The notes under the pieces were generated by a model. The model was not told the origin of the DNA and made no database searches. It saw nothing but the letters and a program-made list of their open reading frames with translations. A program made the translations under genes and the position numbers. 6,041 nt of DNA, taken from assembly GCA_022562855.1 (NCBI GenBank), contig JADFON010000128.1, positions 1 to 6,041 on the forward strand. Direction: 5' to 3'. Every line of letters starts with the position of its first letter. Position 1 is the stretch's first letter. This DNA is from Candidatus Zhuqueibacterota bacterium (GTDB lineage Bacteria > SM23-31). Below, piece by piece: positions 1 through 6,041 of this stretch.

Positions 1-1269
1 GGAAACGTTTTTCGTGCTGAAATCATCAACAAGAAAAAGAACGGCGAATTATATTACGAGGAAAAAACAATAACCCCTTTGAAAGATTCTAAAGGTAATA
101 TTACCCATTTTCTTTCTACGGGTAAGGATATTACTGAAAAGAAAATAGCTGAGGAAGAATTGCGTTTAAGCGAGGAGAGATTCCGGACTATTTTTGAAAA
201 AGGACCCGTAGGAATTGCCCTTGCCGGCATGGACGGAAATTTCATCAGCGTTAACGATATGTATTGTAATTTATTGGGATATTCCAAGGACGAGTTACTA
301 AAATTGAAATTTATTGATATTACCCACGAAGATGACCGGGCTGAGAACGAAGTATTTAACAAAAAAATGCAAAAAGGTGAAATCGAATCATTTTCGATAG
401 AAAAGCGTTATTTAAAAAAGAACGGTGATATCCTCTGGGTAAATGTGACAACATCTCAAATACGTGATAAAAACGGCAAACCGTTGTACAGTATGGGAAT
501 TATAGAGGATATAACAGAAAGACGACAGCTTGAGAAGAAACGTGAAGAAGCGGTGAAATTAGCCGAAAAGGCAGCGAGACTTACATCGCTTGGGACATTG
601 GCGGCAGGGATATCTCATGAAATCAACCAGCCGCTGACGGCAATCAAAATAAAGGTTGACGGGATGCTCTACTGGAAGAACTTATCAAAAGAAATATCTG
701 CGGATGAAGTAAAGGAATGTCTTGAATTTGTTTCTGAGCAGTCGACCCGTATTGACGATATCATCAAGCAAATGCGTGTGCTTGCAAAACAGGATAAGAA
801 TTCTGAACCGATCGAAGTTGTAGTAAACACCGTAATCAGGAATGCGCTGGCGCTTGTAAAACAGCAAATGTCTGCGCGTGGTGTAAAATTGGAACTAAAT
901 CTTGCGCGAAAAGTGCCGAGATTAAAGGGACACCCCGGGTCGTTACAGCAGATAATAATTAACCTTGTTGTAAATGCTATGCATGCTCTTGAAAACTCAA
1001 AAAGAAAAAATAAGAAGATCACTATCTCTACAGAGCGTATTGAAAATAGCTGTAAAATTGAAATTAGCGATAATGGTCCGGGGATACCGGAAAAGCATAT
1101 TAAACATGTATTCGATCCGTTTTTCAGCACAAAAAAGGGCAGCGAAGGTATGGGCTTAGGTCTTTCAATAACCGACAATATCGTTTCTGCGTATGGGGGT
1201 ACGATTTCAGTGCGCAACAAAGAAAAAGGCGGCGCCCAATTTACAATAATGTTTCCTGCTCTCAATTAA
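1..1269 (+). CDS. PAS-PAS sensor histidine kinase (5' truncated by window edge)
   Basis: This is the C-terminal 422 residues of a sensor histidine kinase. The reading frame is open from base 1, so the true start lies upstream; a TTG at 79 is internal and not a plausible start. Seen: residues 1-46 are the end of one PAS/PAC domain, closing with GKDITEKK. Residues about 57-175 are a complete second PAS domain (SEERFRTIFE to GIIEDITERR). A short helical linker follows, then a dimerisation/phosphoacceptor helix with the H-box GISHEINQPL (H206, E207). The catalytic domain has an N-box asparagine at N325, G1 box DNGPG at 357-361, F box DPFF at 372-375 and G2 box GMGLGL at 383-388. No membrane segment lies in the visible part. 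In this NtrB/DctB-like class the histidine is autophosphorylated from ATP and the phosphate passes to a receiver aspartate. The likely partner is the sigma54 response regulator starting at 1534 (inference from adjacency). The signal sensed cannot be told from the sequence. Confidence 0.95.
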   Translation, partial: GNVFRAEIINKKKNGELYYEEKTITPLKDSKGNITHFLSTGKDITEKKIAEEELRLSEERFRTIFEKGPVGIALAGMDGNFISVNDMYCNLLGYSKDELLKLKFIDITHEDDRAENEVFNKKMQKGEIESFSIEKRYLKKNGDILWVNVTTSQIRDKNGKPLYSMGIIEDITERRQLEKKREEAVKLAEKAARLTSLGTLAAGISHEINQPLTAIKIKVDGMLYWKNLSKEISADEVKECLEFVSEQSTRIDDIIKQMRVLAKQDKNSEPIEVVVNTVIRNALALVKQQMSARGVKLELNLARKVPRLKGHPGSLQQIIINLVVNAMHALENSKRKNKKITISTERIENSCKIEISDNGPGIPEKHIKHVFDPFFSTKKGSEGMGLGLSITDNIVSAYGGTISVRNKEKGGAQFTIMFPALN

Positions 1270-1311
1270 AATCAGTACTTTGGTAAAAATTGTATTATCA
1301 GTCGCAGGCTG

Positions 1312-1328
1312 TTCCGCCTTTGGCGGAA
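1312..1328. repeat. Perfect inverted repeat, 7-bp arms
   Basis: TTCCGCC, a TTT loop, then GGCGGAA form a perfect 7-bp stem. It starts 43 bp after the stop codon of the histidine kinase. The following bases (ggtaccac) are not a T-tract, so a standard intrinsic terminator is not supported. It could slow transcription or protect the 3' end of the kinase message, but it more likely belongs to the surrounding repeat-like block. Confidence 0.65.
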
Positions 1329-1367
1329 GGTACCACTTGCACATGGCGCGACGAAAAGGAGACGCCT

Positions 1368-1383
1368 TCCCGCCTTGGCGGGA
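1368..1383. repeat. Perfect inverted repeat, second copy-like palindrome
   Basis: TCCCGCC, TT, then GGCGGGA form a perfect 7-bp inverted repeat. Its core (CCGCC, short T spacer, GGCGG) matches the core of the palindrome at 1312-1328. Two related palindromes 39 bp apart in one gap support the idea of a structured repeat element rather than chance. No T-tract follows. Confidence 0.65.
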
Positions 1384-1525
1384 TAAACCCATCCTACGGG
1401 ACGGGACAATGACAGAATGAGCATGCGTGGCACCCCTCCCCACTCTACCTTTTCCTTATTCGGGGTTTAGGGATGCGATTAACGCCTTAAATTCTAAAAT
1501 TTACAAAGTATTGTTAAAATATTAC

Positions 1526-1530
1526 GGTGG
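1526..1530 (+). promoter_or_regulatory. Ribosome binding site for the NtrC-type regulator
   Basis: GGTGG ends 3 bases before the ATG at 1534. It is an imperfect Shine-Dalgarno with short spacing. The start is chosen chiefly because translation from this ATG begins directly with the first beta strand of the receiver domain (MNILIAEDD), as expected for the family. Confidence 0.5.
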
Positions 1531-1533
1531 ACG

Positions 1534-2988
1534 ATGAATATTTTAATTGCCGAGGACGATAAGAGCATCCAACAAAGTCTGTTGGAGTTTTTAACAACGA
1601 TAGACTACCGTGTAGTCATCTGCGATAACGGGCGGGAAGCTTTGGAGATCCTGAAAAAGGAGAAAATTCATTGCGTGTTGACTGATATCCAGATGCCGCA
1701 TATGGACGGGCACGAATTGCTCAGCCGGATAAAGAATAATAAACTGTGGCAGGATATTGCGGTGATATTGTTCACGGGTCATGGAAATGTCAAAAGTGCA
1801 GTAGACGCAATGAAGAATGGTGCGTATGATTATTTGTTGAAACCTGTCGACATAAAGGAATTAACTATAGTTCACGAACGGCTGAAAGAGTTTCTGGCAA
1901 TAAAGGAAGAGAATAAAGAACTTACGGAGAAGTTTGAGGACAGGGTCAAAGAAGAAACAAATGATATTAAAAAAGAGCTATCCGAAATGCGGAAGGCGTA
2001 TGCTGAAATTGTGGGTGTATCTGAGATAGGTATGTTTTCAGATACTTTGAGACAAATTTTCAGAAAGGCAGACCGCATCCACGGCAACAGGGATATTCCT
2101 GTAATTATAGAAGGGGAAACAGGAACAGGCAAAGAAATAGTTGCCCGCTACATACATTTCGGTAAAGGTAAAGTGGTGACTCCTTTTATCGGTATAAACT
2201 GTTCGGCAATAAGCCCGAATTTGTTTGAAAGTGAATTCTTCGGATACACAGGGGGGGCGTTTACCGGGGCTAAAGCCGGTGGACAAAAAGGAAAACTTGA
2301 GCTTGCAGAGGGGGGTACGATTTTTCTCGATGAAATCACCGATTTGGCGCTTGAATACCAGGCAAAGCTCCTCCGCGTTATTCAAGAACGTGAGTATTAC
2401 CGTGTCGGGGGTCTCAAAAAGTATACTGTAGATGTGAGATTTTTGTGCTCTACAAATCAAGAGATGAAACAAAAAGTAGAAGAGGGTAAATTTCGTGAAG
2501 ATTTGTACTACAGGCTGAACGTGGCACATATTTTACTCCCGCCGCTCAGGGAGAGAAAAGAAGAAATTTTGCCTATGGCGCGTATGTTCCTCAGACAGTT
2601 ATACGATTCACAAAAAACATTTTTCACCAAAATAAGCTCGAAAGCGGTAACGATTTTAGAGGATTATCCCTGGAAAGGAAATATAAGGGAACTCAAAAGT
2701 GCTATCGATCGTATTGCCCTATTCTGGGACGATACCGAAATACGACCTGAACATCTGGATTTTTTGATAGAGGTCGATACTAATATCAAGCGCCGGGCAA
2801 CCATCTCAACAGTAGTTTCTGCAGAAAACATAATTCTTCCCGAAAGCAATTTCAATCTCAAAAACCTCAATTTAGAGATAGTAAAAAAGGTGCTTGACAA
2901 GCATCAATGGAACAAAGCCAAAAGCGCACGGTACCTGGGTATATCCCGTGACGAGCTATACACGTATGTGAAGCGCCTTTCCAATTAA
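1534..2988 (+). CDS. Sigma54-dependent response regulator, NtrC family (receiver-AAA+-Fis HTH)
   Basis: Complete 484-residue bacterial enhancer-binding protein, the usual length for the family. The receiver domain spans about 1-120, with acidic pocket E7/D8/D9, phosphoacceptor D51, T81 and K103. A charged, probably coiled-coil linker covers about 115-160. The AAA+ domain (about 160-400) has Walker A GETGTGKE at 194-201, the sigma54-contacting GAFTGA loop intact at 241-246, Walker B GGTIFLDE at 260-267, the arginine-containing FREDLYYRLNV segment at 320-330 and sensor II GNIREL at 382-387. A Fis-type helix-turn-helix ends the protein (about 444-484). All catalytic motifs are intact, so it should be an active ATPase. 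Known for the family: phosphorylation drives oligomerisation and ATP hydrolysis remodels the sigma54-RNA polymerase closed complex. The upstream kinase is the likely partner. A near-consensus sigma54 promoter just downstream of this gene is a probable target. The specific regulon name cannot be assigned. Confidence 0.97.
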   Translation: MNILIAEDDKSIQQSLLEFLTTIDYRVVICDNGREALEILKKEKIHCVLTDIQMPHMDGHELLSRIKNNKLWQDIAVILFTGHGNVKSAVDAMKNGAYDYLLKPVDIKELTIVHERLKEFLAIKEENKELTEKFEDRVKEETNDIKKELSEMRKAYAEIVGVSEIGMFSDTLRQIFRKADRIHGNRDIPVIIEGETGTGKEIVARYIHFGKGKVVTPFIGINCSAISPNLFESEFFGYTGGAFTGAKAGGQKGKLELAEGGTIFLDEITDLALEYQAKLLRVIQEREYYRVGGLKKYTVDVRFLCSTNQEMKQKVEEGKFREDLYYRLNVAHILLPPLRERKEEILPMARMFLRQLYDSQKTFFTKISSKAVTILEDYPWKGNIRELKSAIDRIALFWDDTEIRPEHLDFLIEVDTNIKRRATISTVVSAENIILPESNFNLKNLNLEIVKKVLDKHQWNKAKSARYLGISRDELYTYVKRLSN

Positions 2989-3803: not shown

Positions 3804-6041
3804 ATGGCTGATATGGAAAATTTTGATGATATAGAATTGATTCAATCTTTTACTTCTGAAAGCAATGATATGCTCGATGAAGTGGAACCCCAGTTAATAG
3901 AACTGCAGGATATTGTTGATTCCGGTGATGGAATTGATAAAGAAATAATCAATTCCATTTTCAGGCTCTATCATACTATGAAAGGTTCCGCAGGTTTTTT
4001 GAATTTTAACAGGCTTGCTTCTGTGACTCATGAAGCTGAGACGCTGCTTGATTTATTCCGGCAAAACAAGGCGGAATTAACCGCAAATAATACCGATTTA
4101 CTTTGCAGAACATGCGACCTGATTAGAAGTCTTCTTGAGACGATAGAAACAAAGCAAACGGATGATAGTCACGAGCAGGAAACCAAAGCAATAGTCGGTG
4201 AATTGTCGTCCGCAATTGAAGCCTCTAAAAACAGTAAGCCAAATAGCAAAGGCGATTCGTCCACGGGGCAGCAGCCGAAAGAAGATCAACAGGGACAGGC
4301 GGATACTAATAAGAATTCGCCAAAAAAAGCAAAATCTTCAGTGAAAAAATCAGCCTCCGGCGGCAAACAATCCAAAGCCGGAAACTCAAACCCCAAAAAA
4401 ACAGGGGCAAGGAAAAAATCAAGCAAGAAGTCTGAAGATGTTGAAGAAAGTGATGTTGATGCAATTGCCAGGGAAATCGAAATGAGTCAGCAGGAAACCG
4501 ATAAAGCAGCAAATGGAGATTTGCAATTTTCGGCATCTCCGGAAATGATAGAGCAGTTTATCCAGGAGTCGGATGAACTTCTTTCGAATCTGGAACAAAA
4601 TCTTTTGGATTATGAAGAGAACCAGGAAAAAGAGGGACCTTATCTTGCAGATGCCTTTCGTCAGATTCACAGTTTCAAAGGTAACTGCGGTTTTCTTGGG
4701 TACAGTGACATGGACAGGTTAAGTCACAAAACAGAATCTGTATTGGAATGCTTAAAGGACAACGTTCCGCTTCGCAGCGACAGTCCTGTCGAATTGTTGC
4801 TGTCTGTAGTGGACATACTAAAGACGGCATTAGCCGATGTCTCGAATAACGGGACGGGGAAAATTGCTGCGCTTGCCGGTTTCATCTCTTTGCTGGACGA
4901 AATTTTACCGGCAGATTCAGAGGGACAAAAAGACGGAGGGGGCGCACTTGGCGAAATCCTTGTTGCTCGTGGCGATGTATCGGTTGATGCGGTAGAAGAA
5001 GCCCTGGACAGGCAGGATATGCCTTTAGGAGAAATACTTGTTGACATGGGTCATGCTTCGGAAGAGGTAGTGGCAAAAGCGTTGAAAGACCAGGGCTCTG
5101 ACAGGACAAAAGACAAATCACAAATTGACCCCTCTAAGGCTCCGAAGACGATAAAACGGCGGGATATCAGGGTTGACGTTGAGAAACTCGATTCACTCAT
5201 CAATCTGGTAGGGGAATTGATTATCGCCGAGTCCCTTGTGACAAGTAACACCGATTTAAAAGGGCTTGAGCTTGAAAACTTCGAACGGGCGGCTCACGGC
5301 TTGAAACTCATTACAACCGATTTGCAGGACGTTGCGATGTCGGTCCGTATGATGCCTATCGCGGGTACGTTCAGGAAGATGATCAGACTTGTTCACGACC
5401 TTGCAGGTAAGGCAAACAAAAAAGTTAAACTCGATTTAATTGGAGAGGAAACCGAGGTAGACAAGAATGTAATCGAGTTGATAGGTGATCCCTTGGTCCA
5501 CATAGTCCGCAACTCTGTCGATCATGGTATTGACACTTCTGAAGAACGGGCGGCTCTTGGGAAAGATGAGATAGGTCGTGTGACCATCCAGGCAAAGCAC
5601 GAAGGGGGGGAGATATGGATAATCATACGTGACGATGGACGCGGACTTGACCGGGATAAAATACTGGCAAAAGCAAAGGAGACCGGTCTGGTAAATGGCA
5701 ATTCAGACAACATGACTGATAAAGAAATATACAATCTTATCTTCGAACCGGGATTTTCAACTGCCGAGAAAGTAACGGATATTTCCGGCAGGGGCGTAGG
5801 GATGGATGTGGTGAGAAAGAATATTGAAAAATTGAAGGGTCATGTGGATGTACACAGCGAGCTTAATAAAGGGACAACTATCAGTTTGAGAATACCTCTT
5901 ACGCTTGCGATTATCGACGGGATGATGATCAGGGTTGGTCAAAAGGCTTTTACCATTCCTATCATCAACATAATAGAGTTTTTCAGACCTTCAAGGGACA
6001 TGATAAACATCCTGGCAAGCGGATTAGAAATAGTAAAACTG
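3804..6041 (+). CDS. cheA: CheA-type chemosensory histidine kinase with two HPt domains and MshEN-like repeats (3' truncated by window edge)
   Basis: The frame is open for 746 codons to the window end. First HPt domain at about 8-115, phosphoacceptor H57 in HTMKGS. Linker about 120-225, containing a Lys/Ser-rich tract (170-209). Second HPt at about 235-345, phosphoacceptor H289 in HSFKGN. Two tandem 24-residue motifs at 381-404 and 407-430 resemble MshEN/GspE_N sequences. The P3 dimerisation domain begins at RVDVEKLDSLINLVGEL (456-472). The P4 ATPase has N-box HIVRNSVDHGID (566-577, N570), G1 DDGRG (610-614), F-box EPGFST (648-653) and G2 GRGVGMD (662-668). The start of the P5 CheW-like domain (about 700 on) is cut off. 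No recognisable P2 domain is seen. CheA autophosphorylates on HPt histidines in receptor-CheW arrays and passes phosphate to receivers; the small regulator 21 bp upstream is the probable partner. The double HPt recalls type IV pilus or alternative-function systems rather than the minimal flagellar form. Confidence 0.96.
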   Translation, partial: MADMENFDDIELIQSFTSESNDMLDEVEPQLIELQDIVDSGDGIDKEIINSIFRLYHTMKGSAGFLNFNRLASVTHEAETLLDLFRQNKAELTANNTDLLCRTCDLIRSLLETIETKQTDDSHEQETKAIVGELSSAIEASKNSKPNSKGDSSTGQQPKEDQQGQADTNKNSPKKAKSSVKKSASGGKQSKAGNSNPKKTGARKKSSKKSEDVEESDVDAIAREIEMSQQETDKAANGDLQFSASPEMIEQFIQESDELLSNLEQNLLDYEENQEKEGPYLADAFRQIHSFKGNCGFLGYSDMDRLSHKTESVLECLKDNVPLRSDSPVELLLSVVDILKTALADVSNNGTGKIAALAGFISLLDEILPADSEGQKDGGGALGEILVARGDVSVDAVEEALDRQDMPLGEILVDMGHASEEVVAKALKDQGSDRTKDKSQIDPSKAPKTIKRRDIRVDVEKLDSLINLVGELIIAESLVTSNTDLKGLELENFERAAHGLKLITTDLQDVAMSVRMMPIAGTFRKMIRLVHDLAGKANKKVKLDLIGEETEVDKNVIELIGDPLVHIVRNSVDHGIDTSEERAALGKDEIGRVTIQAKHEGGEIWIIIRDDGRGLDRDKILAKAKETGLVNGNSDNMTDKEIYNLIFEPGFSTAEKVTDISGRGVGMDVVRKNIEKLKGHVDVHSELNKGTTISLRIPLTLAIIDGMMIRVGQKAFTIPIINIIEFFRPSRDMINILASGLEIVKL
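4944..5093 (+). repeat. Tandem MshEN/GspE_N-like motif pair encoded inside cheA
   Basis: Residues 381-404 and 407-430 of the CheA align to each other over 24 positions. Both have L-G at motif positions 2-3, EILV at 4-7, G at 10, V at 17, A-L at 20-21 and Q at 24, separated by only two residues (D-M). This is the spacing pattern of the paired motifs in the MshE N-terminal domain, which binds cyclic di-GMP in some ATPases. The leading arginine of the family motif is replaced (A381 and P407), and the family spacer is longer (five residues in MshE, from memory). The fold is therefore well supported, while ligand binding is doubtful. Confidence 0.65.

Follow-up and report, generated by a model that had tools for sequence, protein, structure and literature searches.

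An MshEN_N-like domain ahead of the dimerization domain of a CheA kinase, a candidate cyclic di-GMP input

Domain Organization of the Kinase

The DNA analyzed here (the window, 6,041 nucleotides in all) is contig C134 of a fragmented genome that is about 80% complete. Upstream of cheA (window 1-2988) lie genes for a PAS sensor kinase and for a sigma-54 regulator of the NtrC type. The same genes stand in the same order upstream of cheA in the same-family genome G002 (L129:9500-12653), and the NtrC-type regulators of the two loci are 55% identical. The cheA gene and the parts of its product are as follows.

3804..6041, plus strand: cheA open reading frame, 746 amino acids, open at the contig end
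3816..4232, plus strand: Hpt1, residues 5-143 (Pfam PF01627; HxxKG motif at H57; five helices in the model)
4245..4523, plus strand: low-complexity linker, residues 148-240, predicted to be disordered (pLDDT mostly <50)
4539..4904, plus strand: Hpt2, residues 246-367, phospho-acceptor H289 (Pfam, alignment, AlphaFold model)
4944..5015, plus strand: MshEN motif 1, residues 381-404 (head Ala381; Gln404 retained)
5016..5021, plus strand: two-residue spacer Asp-Met, residues 405-406 (from the sequence)
5022..5093, plus strand: MshEN motif 2, residues 407-430 (head Pro407; Gln430 retained)
4947..5120, plus strand: predicted MshEN_N-like four-helix bundle, residues 382-439 (AlphaFold models; Foldseek match 5htl_B)
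5112..5177, plus strand: short disordered tether joining MshEN to P3, residues 437-458 (pLDDT <50 at residues 437-454; linker survey)
5178..5348, plus strand: P3 dimerization domain, residues 459-515 (PF02895; model)
5361..5903, plus strand: P4 ATP-binding kinase domain, residues 520-700 (PF02518, HATPase_c; model)
5916..6041, plus strand: start of the P5 (CheW-like) domain (sequence, model; PF01584 in homologues)

The product was identified as a CheA from its Hpt domain with an HxxKG motif, its P3 domain and its P4 HATPase domain, using Pfam, alignment and model. The first 42 residues of P5 are present before the contig end cuts the reading frame. Pfam gave no PF07194 match, and hence no P2 receiver-docking domain, in the window CheA. 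The full-length AlphaFold model, computed from an alignment of 52 sequences, has a mean pLDDT of 81.7. An earlier, sequence-only reading of this DNA had recognized two 24-residue motifs at 4944-5093. These coordinates are exact and correspond to residues 381-430 of the reading frame that starts at 3804; the accompanying claim that the motifs lie between Hpt2 and P3 is borne out by the full-length model.

Sequence Evidence for MshEN Kinship

Motif 1 of the segment is ALGEILVARGDVSVDAVEEALDRQ and motif 2 is PLGEILVDMGHASEEVVAKALKDQ, each of 24 residues, with the spacer DM between them. The segment matches NF053729, the NCBIfam profile for "cyclic di-GMP-binding domain-containing protein, MshE-related", with an E-value of 3.4e-17 and 62 bits (cut-off 38) over profile positions 2-53 of 53. 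The score also exceeds the cut-off with the full CheA protein (39.4 bits) and in a scan of the whole genome (44.1 bits). A phmmer search of the PDB returned Thermus thermophilus PilF as the top match of the segment, with an E-value of 1.5e-12. The strength of the NF053729 match points to far more than a chance likeness to MshEN motifs, and the MshEN kinship proposed in the sequence-only reading stands.

The 90-position Pfam MshEN profile, PF05157, gave no row for the CheA at E ≤10 and none here in the genome scan. This result is consistent with the missing MshEN_C subdomain: in the full-length model a disordered stretch and then P3 come after the bundle. The profile check suggested by the earlier reading was thus positive with NCBIfam and blank with Pfam.

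The MshEN segment also has a weak, sub-threshold similarity to the Pfam family DUF4388 (window 4950-5100, residues 383-432; E 0.13). Six of 52 CheAs match DUF4388 at E ≤0.01, the best at 3.1e-4, which suggests that part of this family may resemble MshEN motifs.

Predicted Fold of the Segment

An AlphaFold model of the segment consists of four helices with a core pLDDT of about 90; its input was an alignment of 74 CheA segments that are MshEN homologues, and the model is accordingly not independent of the sequence assignment. Foldseek superimposed the model on MshE with bound c-di-GMP (PDB 5HTL) with a root mean square deviation of 1.1 Å over 56 columns at 36% identity, so that the comparison with this complex proposed from the sequence turned out in favor of a common four-helix bundle. 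The best 13 Foldseek matches are all N-terminal domains of MshE, PilF (GSPII) or PilB, including that of Xanthomonas citri PilB; their E-values, no better than 0.02, are modest, which is to be expected for 56 residues. PilF GSPII-B, likewise a c-di-GMP complex, is also among the best PDB structural matches. VIA-align gave Z-scores of 8.5-9.1 for MshE and PilF structures, well above those of unrelated rows. Taken together, profile match and predicted fold make membership of the CheA segment in the MshEN_N family well supported.

MshEN Pairs in Other CheA Proteins

CheA was named, in the text only, among the MshEN-fused proteins retrieved by database searches (Wang et al. 2016, PMC5013675). The CheA-MshEN architecture has been known since that time, and the window CheA is a further member. 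In the literature searched we found no functional test of a CheA-MshEN fusion, and no paper that describes a GSPII domain in CheA or direct binding of c-di-GMP to CheA.

The census was made by profile searches of whole genomes; a peptide scan with the whole CheA drew mainly CheAs that lack MshEN. Five of 40 other sampled relative genomes (G003, G022, G028, G037 and G039) gave a CheA match spanning the MshEN pair and P3. Of 247 genomes searched in the phylum of G028, at least about 105 have the pair directly before P3 of CheA, which confirms, for one other phylum, the suggestion in the sequence-only reading that other CheAs carry a similar insert. Among the 150 matches listed from these 247 genomes, 130 start in the MshEN part and extend into P3.

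A total of 86 CheAs were extracted, and the motif pair could be placed in 84. The pairs of L065, L074 and L089 were misregistered and were excluded from the structure alignment. With a motif finder that leans to the consensus and scores Q, N, H, E, K and R equally at the last position, glycine and glutamine were each found in 84 of 84 copies of motif 2, and in 83 and 65 of 84 copies, respectively, of motif 1. When 52 full CheAs were aligned independently, the invariant columns included G383, L386, G409 and Q430. NF053729 matches 72 of 74 homologous CheA segments. Positions that make no ligand or core contacts vary freely across the 84 homologues.

The head of motif 1 is most often lysine (31 of 84) or arginine (27), then proline (12) or leucine (7), and the window CheA is the only one with alanine. 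At the head of motif 2, lysine (28), proline (27) and arginine (16) predominate. The spacer is 1 to 16 residues long, with 1, 7, 6, 2 and 5 as the commonest lengths. Because of this range the two-residue spacer is ordinary for a CheA, and spacer length is a weak criterion of membership. The idea that a two-residue spacer marks a CheA-specific subfamily was rejected, since CheA spacers span this whole range and their lengths largely track CheA clades.

Four MshEN motifs in tandem, making up two pairs, precede P3 in the CheAs of L022, L094 and L106. In G100, cheA is split (L123:7059-9575, 707 amino acids), with P5 in a separate reading frame directly after it, owing to a frameshift or an assembly error.

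Ligand Contact Positions

The c-di-GMP contacts of MshE are made by the head arginines R9 and R38, by L10 and L39, by the backbone of G11 and G40, by the leucines of LxxxLxxQ, and by Q32 and Q61 (PMC5013675). The CheA segment keeps the corresponding residues L382/L408, G383/G409, V397 with L401, V423 with L427, and Q404/Q430. As judged by alignment, strong departure among the contact positions is confined to the heads, A381 and P407. Neither is arginine, nor any residue of the extended set R/K/L, and the spacer has two residues in place of five; the sequence-only reading had read these features correctly. Position 11 is polar in both CheA motifs (Asp and His), which, like the blank PF05157 result, counts against the c-di-GMP interpretation.

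That reading had taken the missing arginines and the short spacer as pointing away from nucleotide binding, an argument now weakened by the range of CheA spacers and by data on PilF. GSPII-B of PilF, with lysine and leucine heads, bound c-di-GMP at 6 nM, or at 2 nM when it carried the K167L mutation, and the head consensus was widened to R/K/L in that work (PMC11731258). In the PilF sequence, GSPII-C has arginine at the head of motif 1, proline at that of motif 2 and seven residues between the motifs; the weaker PilF site (∼460 nM) is credited to it. By analogy, the P407 head looks acceptable for binding. The missing MshEN_C subdomain is no obstacle either, since the N-terminal subdomain alone binds in two cases: MshE without its C-terminal subdomain at 350 nM, as quoted in PMC11731258, and consensus mutants of PilF9-65 at ∼0.7 μM (PMC12002112).

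The real doubt, by the same analogies, concerns A381, which may weaken binding: the alanine has no side chain that could stack on one guanine. In the literature we found no tested precedent for an alanine head and no experimentally tested precedent for a two-residue spacer. A serine at the motif-2 head of PilF GSPII-A constructs abolished binding (PMC12002112).

The main rival interpretation is that the segment is a degenerate MshEN domain that has lost nucleotide binding and now serves to dock a protein or has a purely structural role. The alanine at the head of motif 1 speaks for this, as do two domains that retain the fold: ND0 of X. citri PilB, which lacks the binding residues (PMC8389850) and is a structural match of the segment, and GSPII-A of PilF, which does not bind (PMC12002112). 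Conservation of the fold is no proof of function. However, in the non-binder GSPII-A the two glutamines and a glycine have been replaced (H33, R62 and A41), whereas the CheA segment retains both glycines, both glutamines and the hydrophobic clusters, with the motif-2 glutamine invariant throughout the 84 CheAs. We regard loss of binding as a possible but less probable explanation than a c-di-GMP input domain.

Placement in the Linker between Hpt and P3

Measured from the last glutamine of the pair to an anchor sequence in the first P3 helix, the median distance is 21 residues (76 cases), against 31 in the window CheA. The sequence-only reading had the motifs in the place of a P2 domain. Their position between Hpt2 and P3 is as described, but strict replacement of P2 was rejected because relatives such as L023 have an extra segment, of ∼200 residues in L023, between Hpt (residues 11-91) and the MshEN pair (residue 308).

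A looser form of the idea, in which the pair substitutes for P2 by docking CheY-type receivers, draws on this position and on the lack of a Pfam P2 domain in the window CheA and in 51 of 52 aligned CheAs, P2 being found in one. It seems unlikely to us, given that sequence and predicted fold are those of a nucleotide-binding domain and not of P2, that the pair is absent from a same-family CheA with the same upstream gene order, and that in some CheAs (L023) the further segment occupies the P2 position and MshEN follows it.

This same-family CheA, from G002 (L129), is 42% identical to the window CheA and likewise has two Hpt domains and P3-P5, but in place of MshEN it has a charged linker rich in proline, lysine and glutamate. 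A tree built from P3-P4 of 97 CheAs requires eight changes of the MshEN label, at least six of them forced by well-supported branches. The hypothesis that CheA-MshEN arose only once and was never lost afterwards was rejected on this sampled tree, in which long branches are present. The changes of label, together with the MshEN-less same-family CheA, indicate that the MshEN domain is modular, being gained and lost within the Hpt-P3 linker.

Genome and Operon Context

The genome of the window encodes two intact GGDEF domains and one GGDEF fragment, one methyl-accepting chemotaxis protein and FlhA. It also encodes several T2SSE ATPases, two of them with MshEN motifs. In L122, the closest relative with a long neighborhood, the kinase gene heads a standard operon encoding CheW, CheR, a standalone MshEN protein, CheB, CheD, receivers and CheX.

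The relative in question is the one whose CheA is closest to that of the window. Its standalone protein, of 137 amino acids (L122:7979-8389, minus strand), lies between cheR and cheB and has repeated MshEN motifs (NF053729, 86.9 bits in three stretches). The window genome has a standalone protein of 143 amino acids on contig C90 (L004:1354-1785) that scores 54.6 bits for MshEN motifs, in about three stretches that overlap. It sits between shikimate-kinase-like and gamma-glutamyltransferase-like genes, outside a che operon.

The MshEN-bearing ATPases would suit the suggestion, made in the sequence-only reading, that the MshEN pair signals motor status by docking an ATPase of a type IV pilus or of type II secretion, which we consider very improbable: nothing was found in its support, there being no evidence of MshEN-MshEN pairing and the neighbors of MshEN-type cheA genes being ordinary che genes.

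Proposed Function

We favor, with moderate confidence, the interpretation that the segment is a c-di-GMP input domain adjoining P3. One c-di-GMP would be bound between the two MshEN motifs, and the change between the occupied and the empty state would alter the reach of the Hpt domains to P4, or the behavior of P3 and P4. In this way, cellular c-di-GMP would tune the output of CheA. The interpretation draws on the family membership of the segment, its predicted fold, the retention of most contact residues, the constant position before P3 in many CheAs, and the GGDEF, flagellar and chemotaxis genes of the genome. We infer ligand binding by the window copy, as well as any effect on kinase activity and the sign of that effect. 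Because of its alanine head, the window copy is less certain as a c-di-GMP input than its relatives.

The survey shows a CheA-MshEN fusion that is common and modular and that, in alignments, retains most of the contact residues. The broader proposal, for which we see the case as evenly balanced, is that c-di-GMP acts directly on a widespread class of CheAs, controlling them by way of a minimal MshEN_N domain whose spacer varies in length and is often shortened. Links between c-di-GMP and chemotaxis are usually made by separate proteins: PilZ proteins, chemoreceptors with PilZ domains, and diguanylate cyclases controlled by CheA. If the proposal is true, the kinase itself would be the point at which c-di-GMP feeds into the chemotaxis phosphorelay, and a receptor domain within CheA would join the swim-or-stick signal directly to the chemotaxis kinase.

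Comparison with Known Systems

Among CheAs, those of L019, L021, L043, L047, L049 and others resemble the window protein in having an MshEN pair immediately before P3. The nearest homologue, L043, is 51% identical and also has a spacer of two residues. The other CheA homologues differ from the window CheA in having mostly lysine, arginine or proline at the motif-1 head and spacers of 1-16 residues.

T. thermophilus PilF provides c-di-GMP-binding relatives, GSPII-B and GSPII-C, that likewise do without two head arginines. Both belong to a tandem array of GSPII domains in a traffic ATPase, and they have K/L or R/P heads and spacers of 5 and 7 residues.

The MshEN_N domain of Vibrio cholerae MshE (5HTL) resembles the CheA segment in its two 24-residue motifs, four-helix bundle, glycines, glutamines and hydrophobic clusters. 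The two differ in the spacer (five residues in MshE, two in CheA) and in the heads (R/R in MshE, A/P in CheA). In MshE the MshEN_C subdomain is present and the host is an ATPase, whereas in CheA MshEN_C is absent and the host is a histidine kinase.
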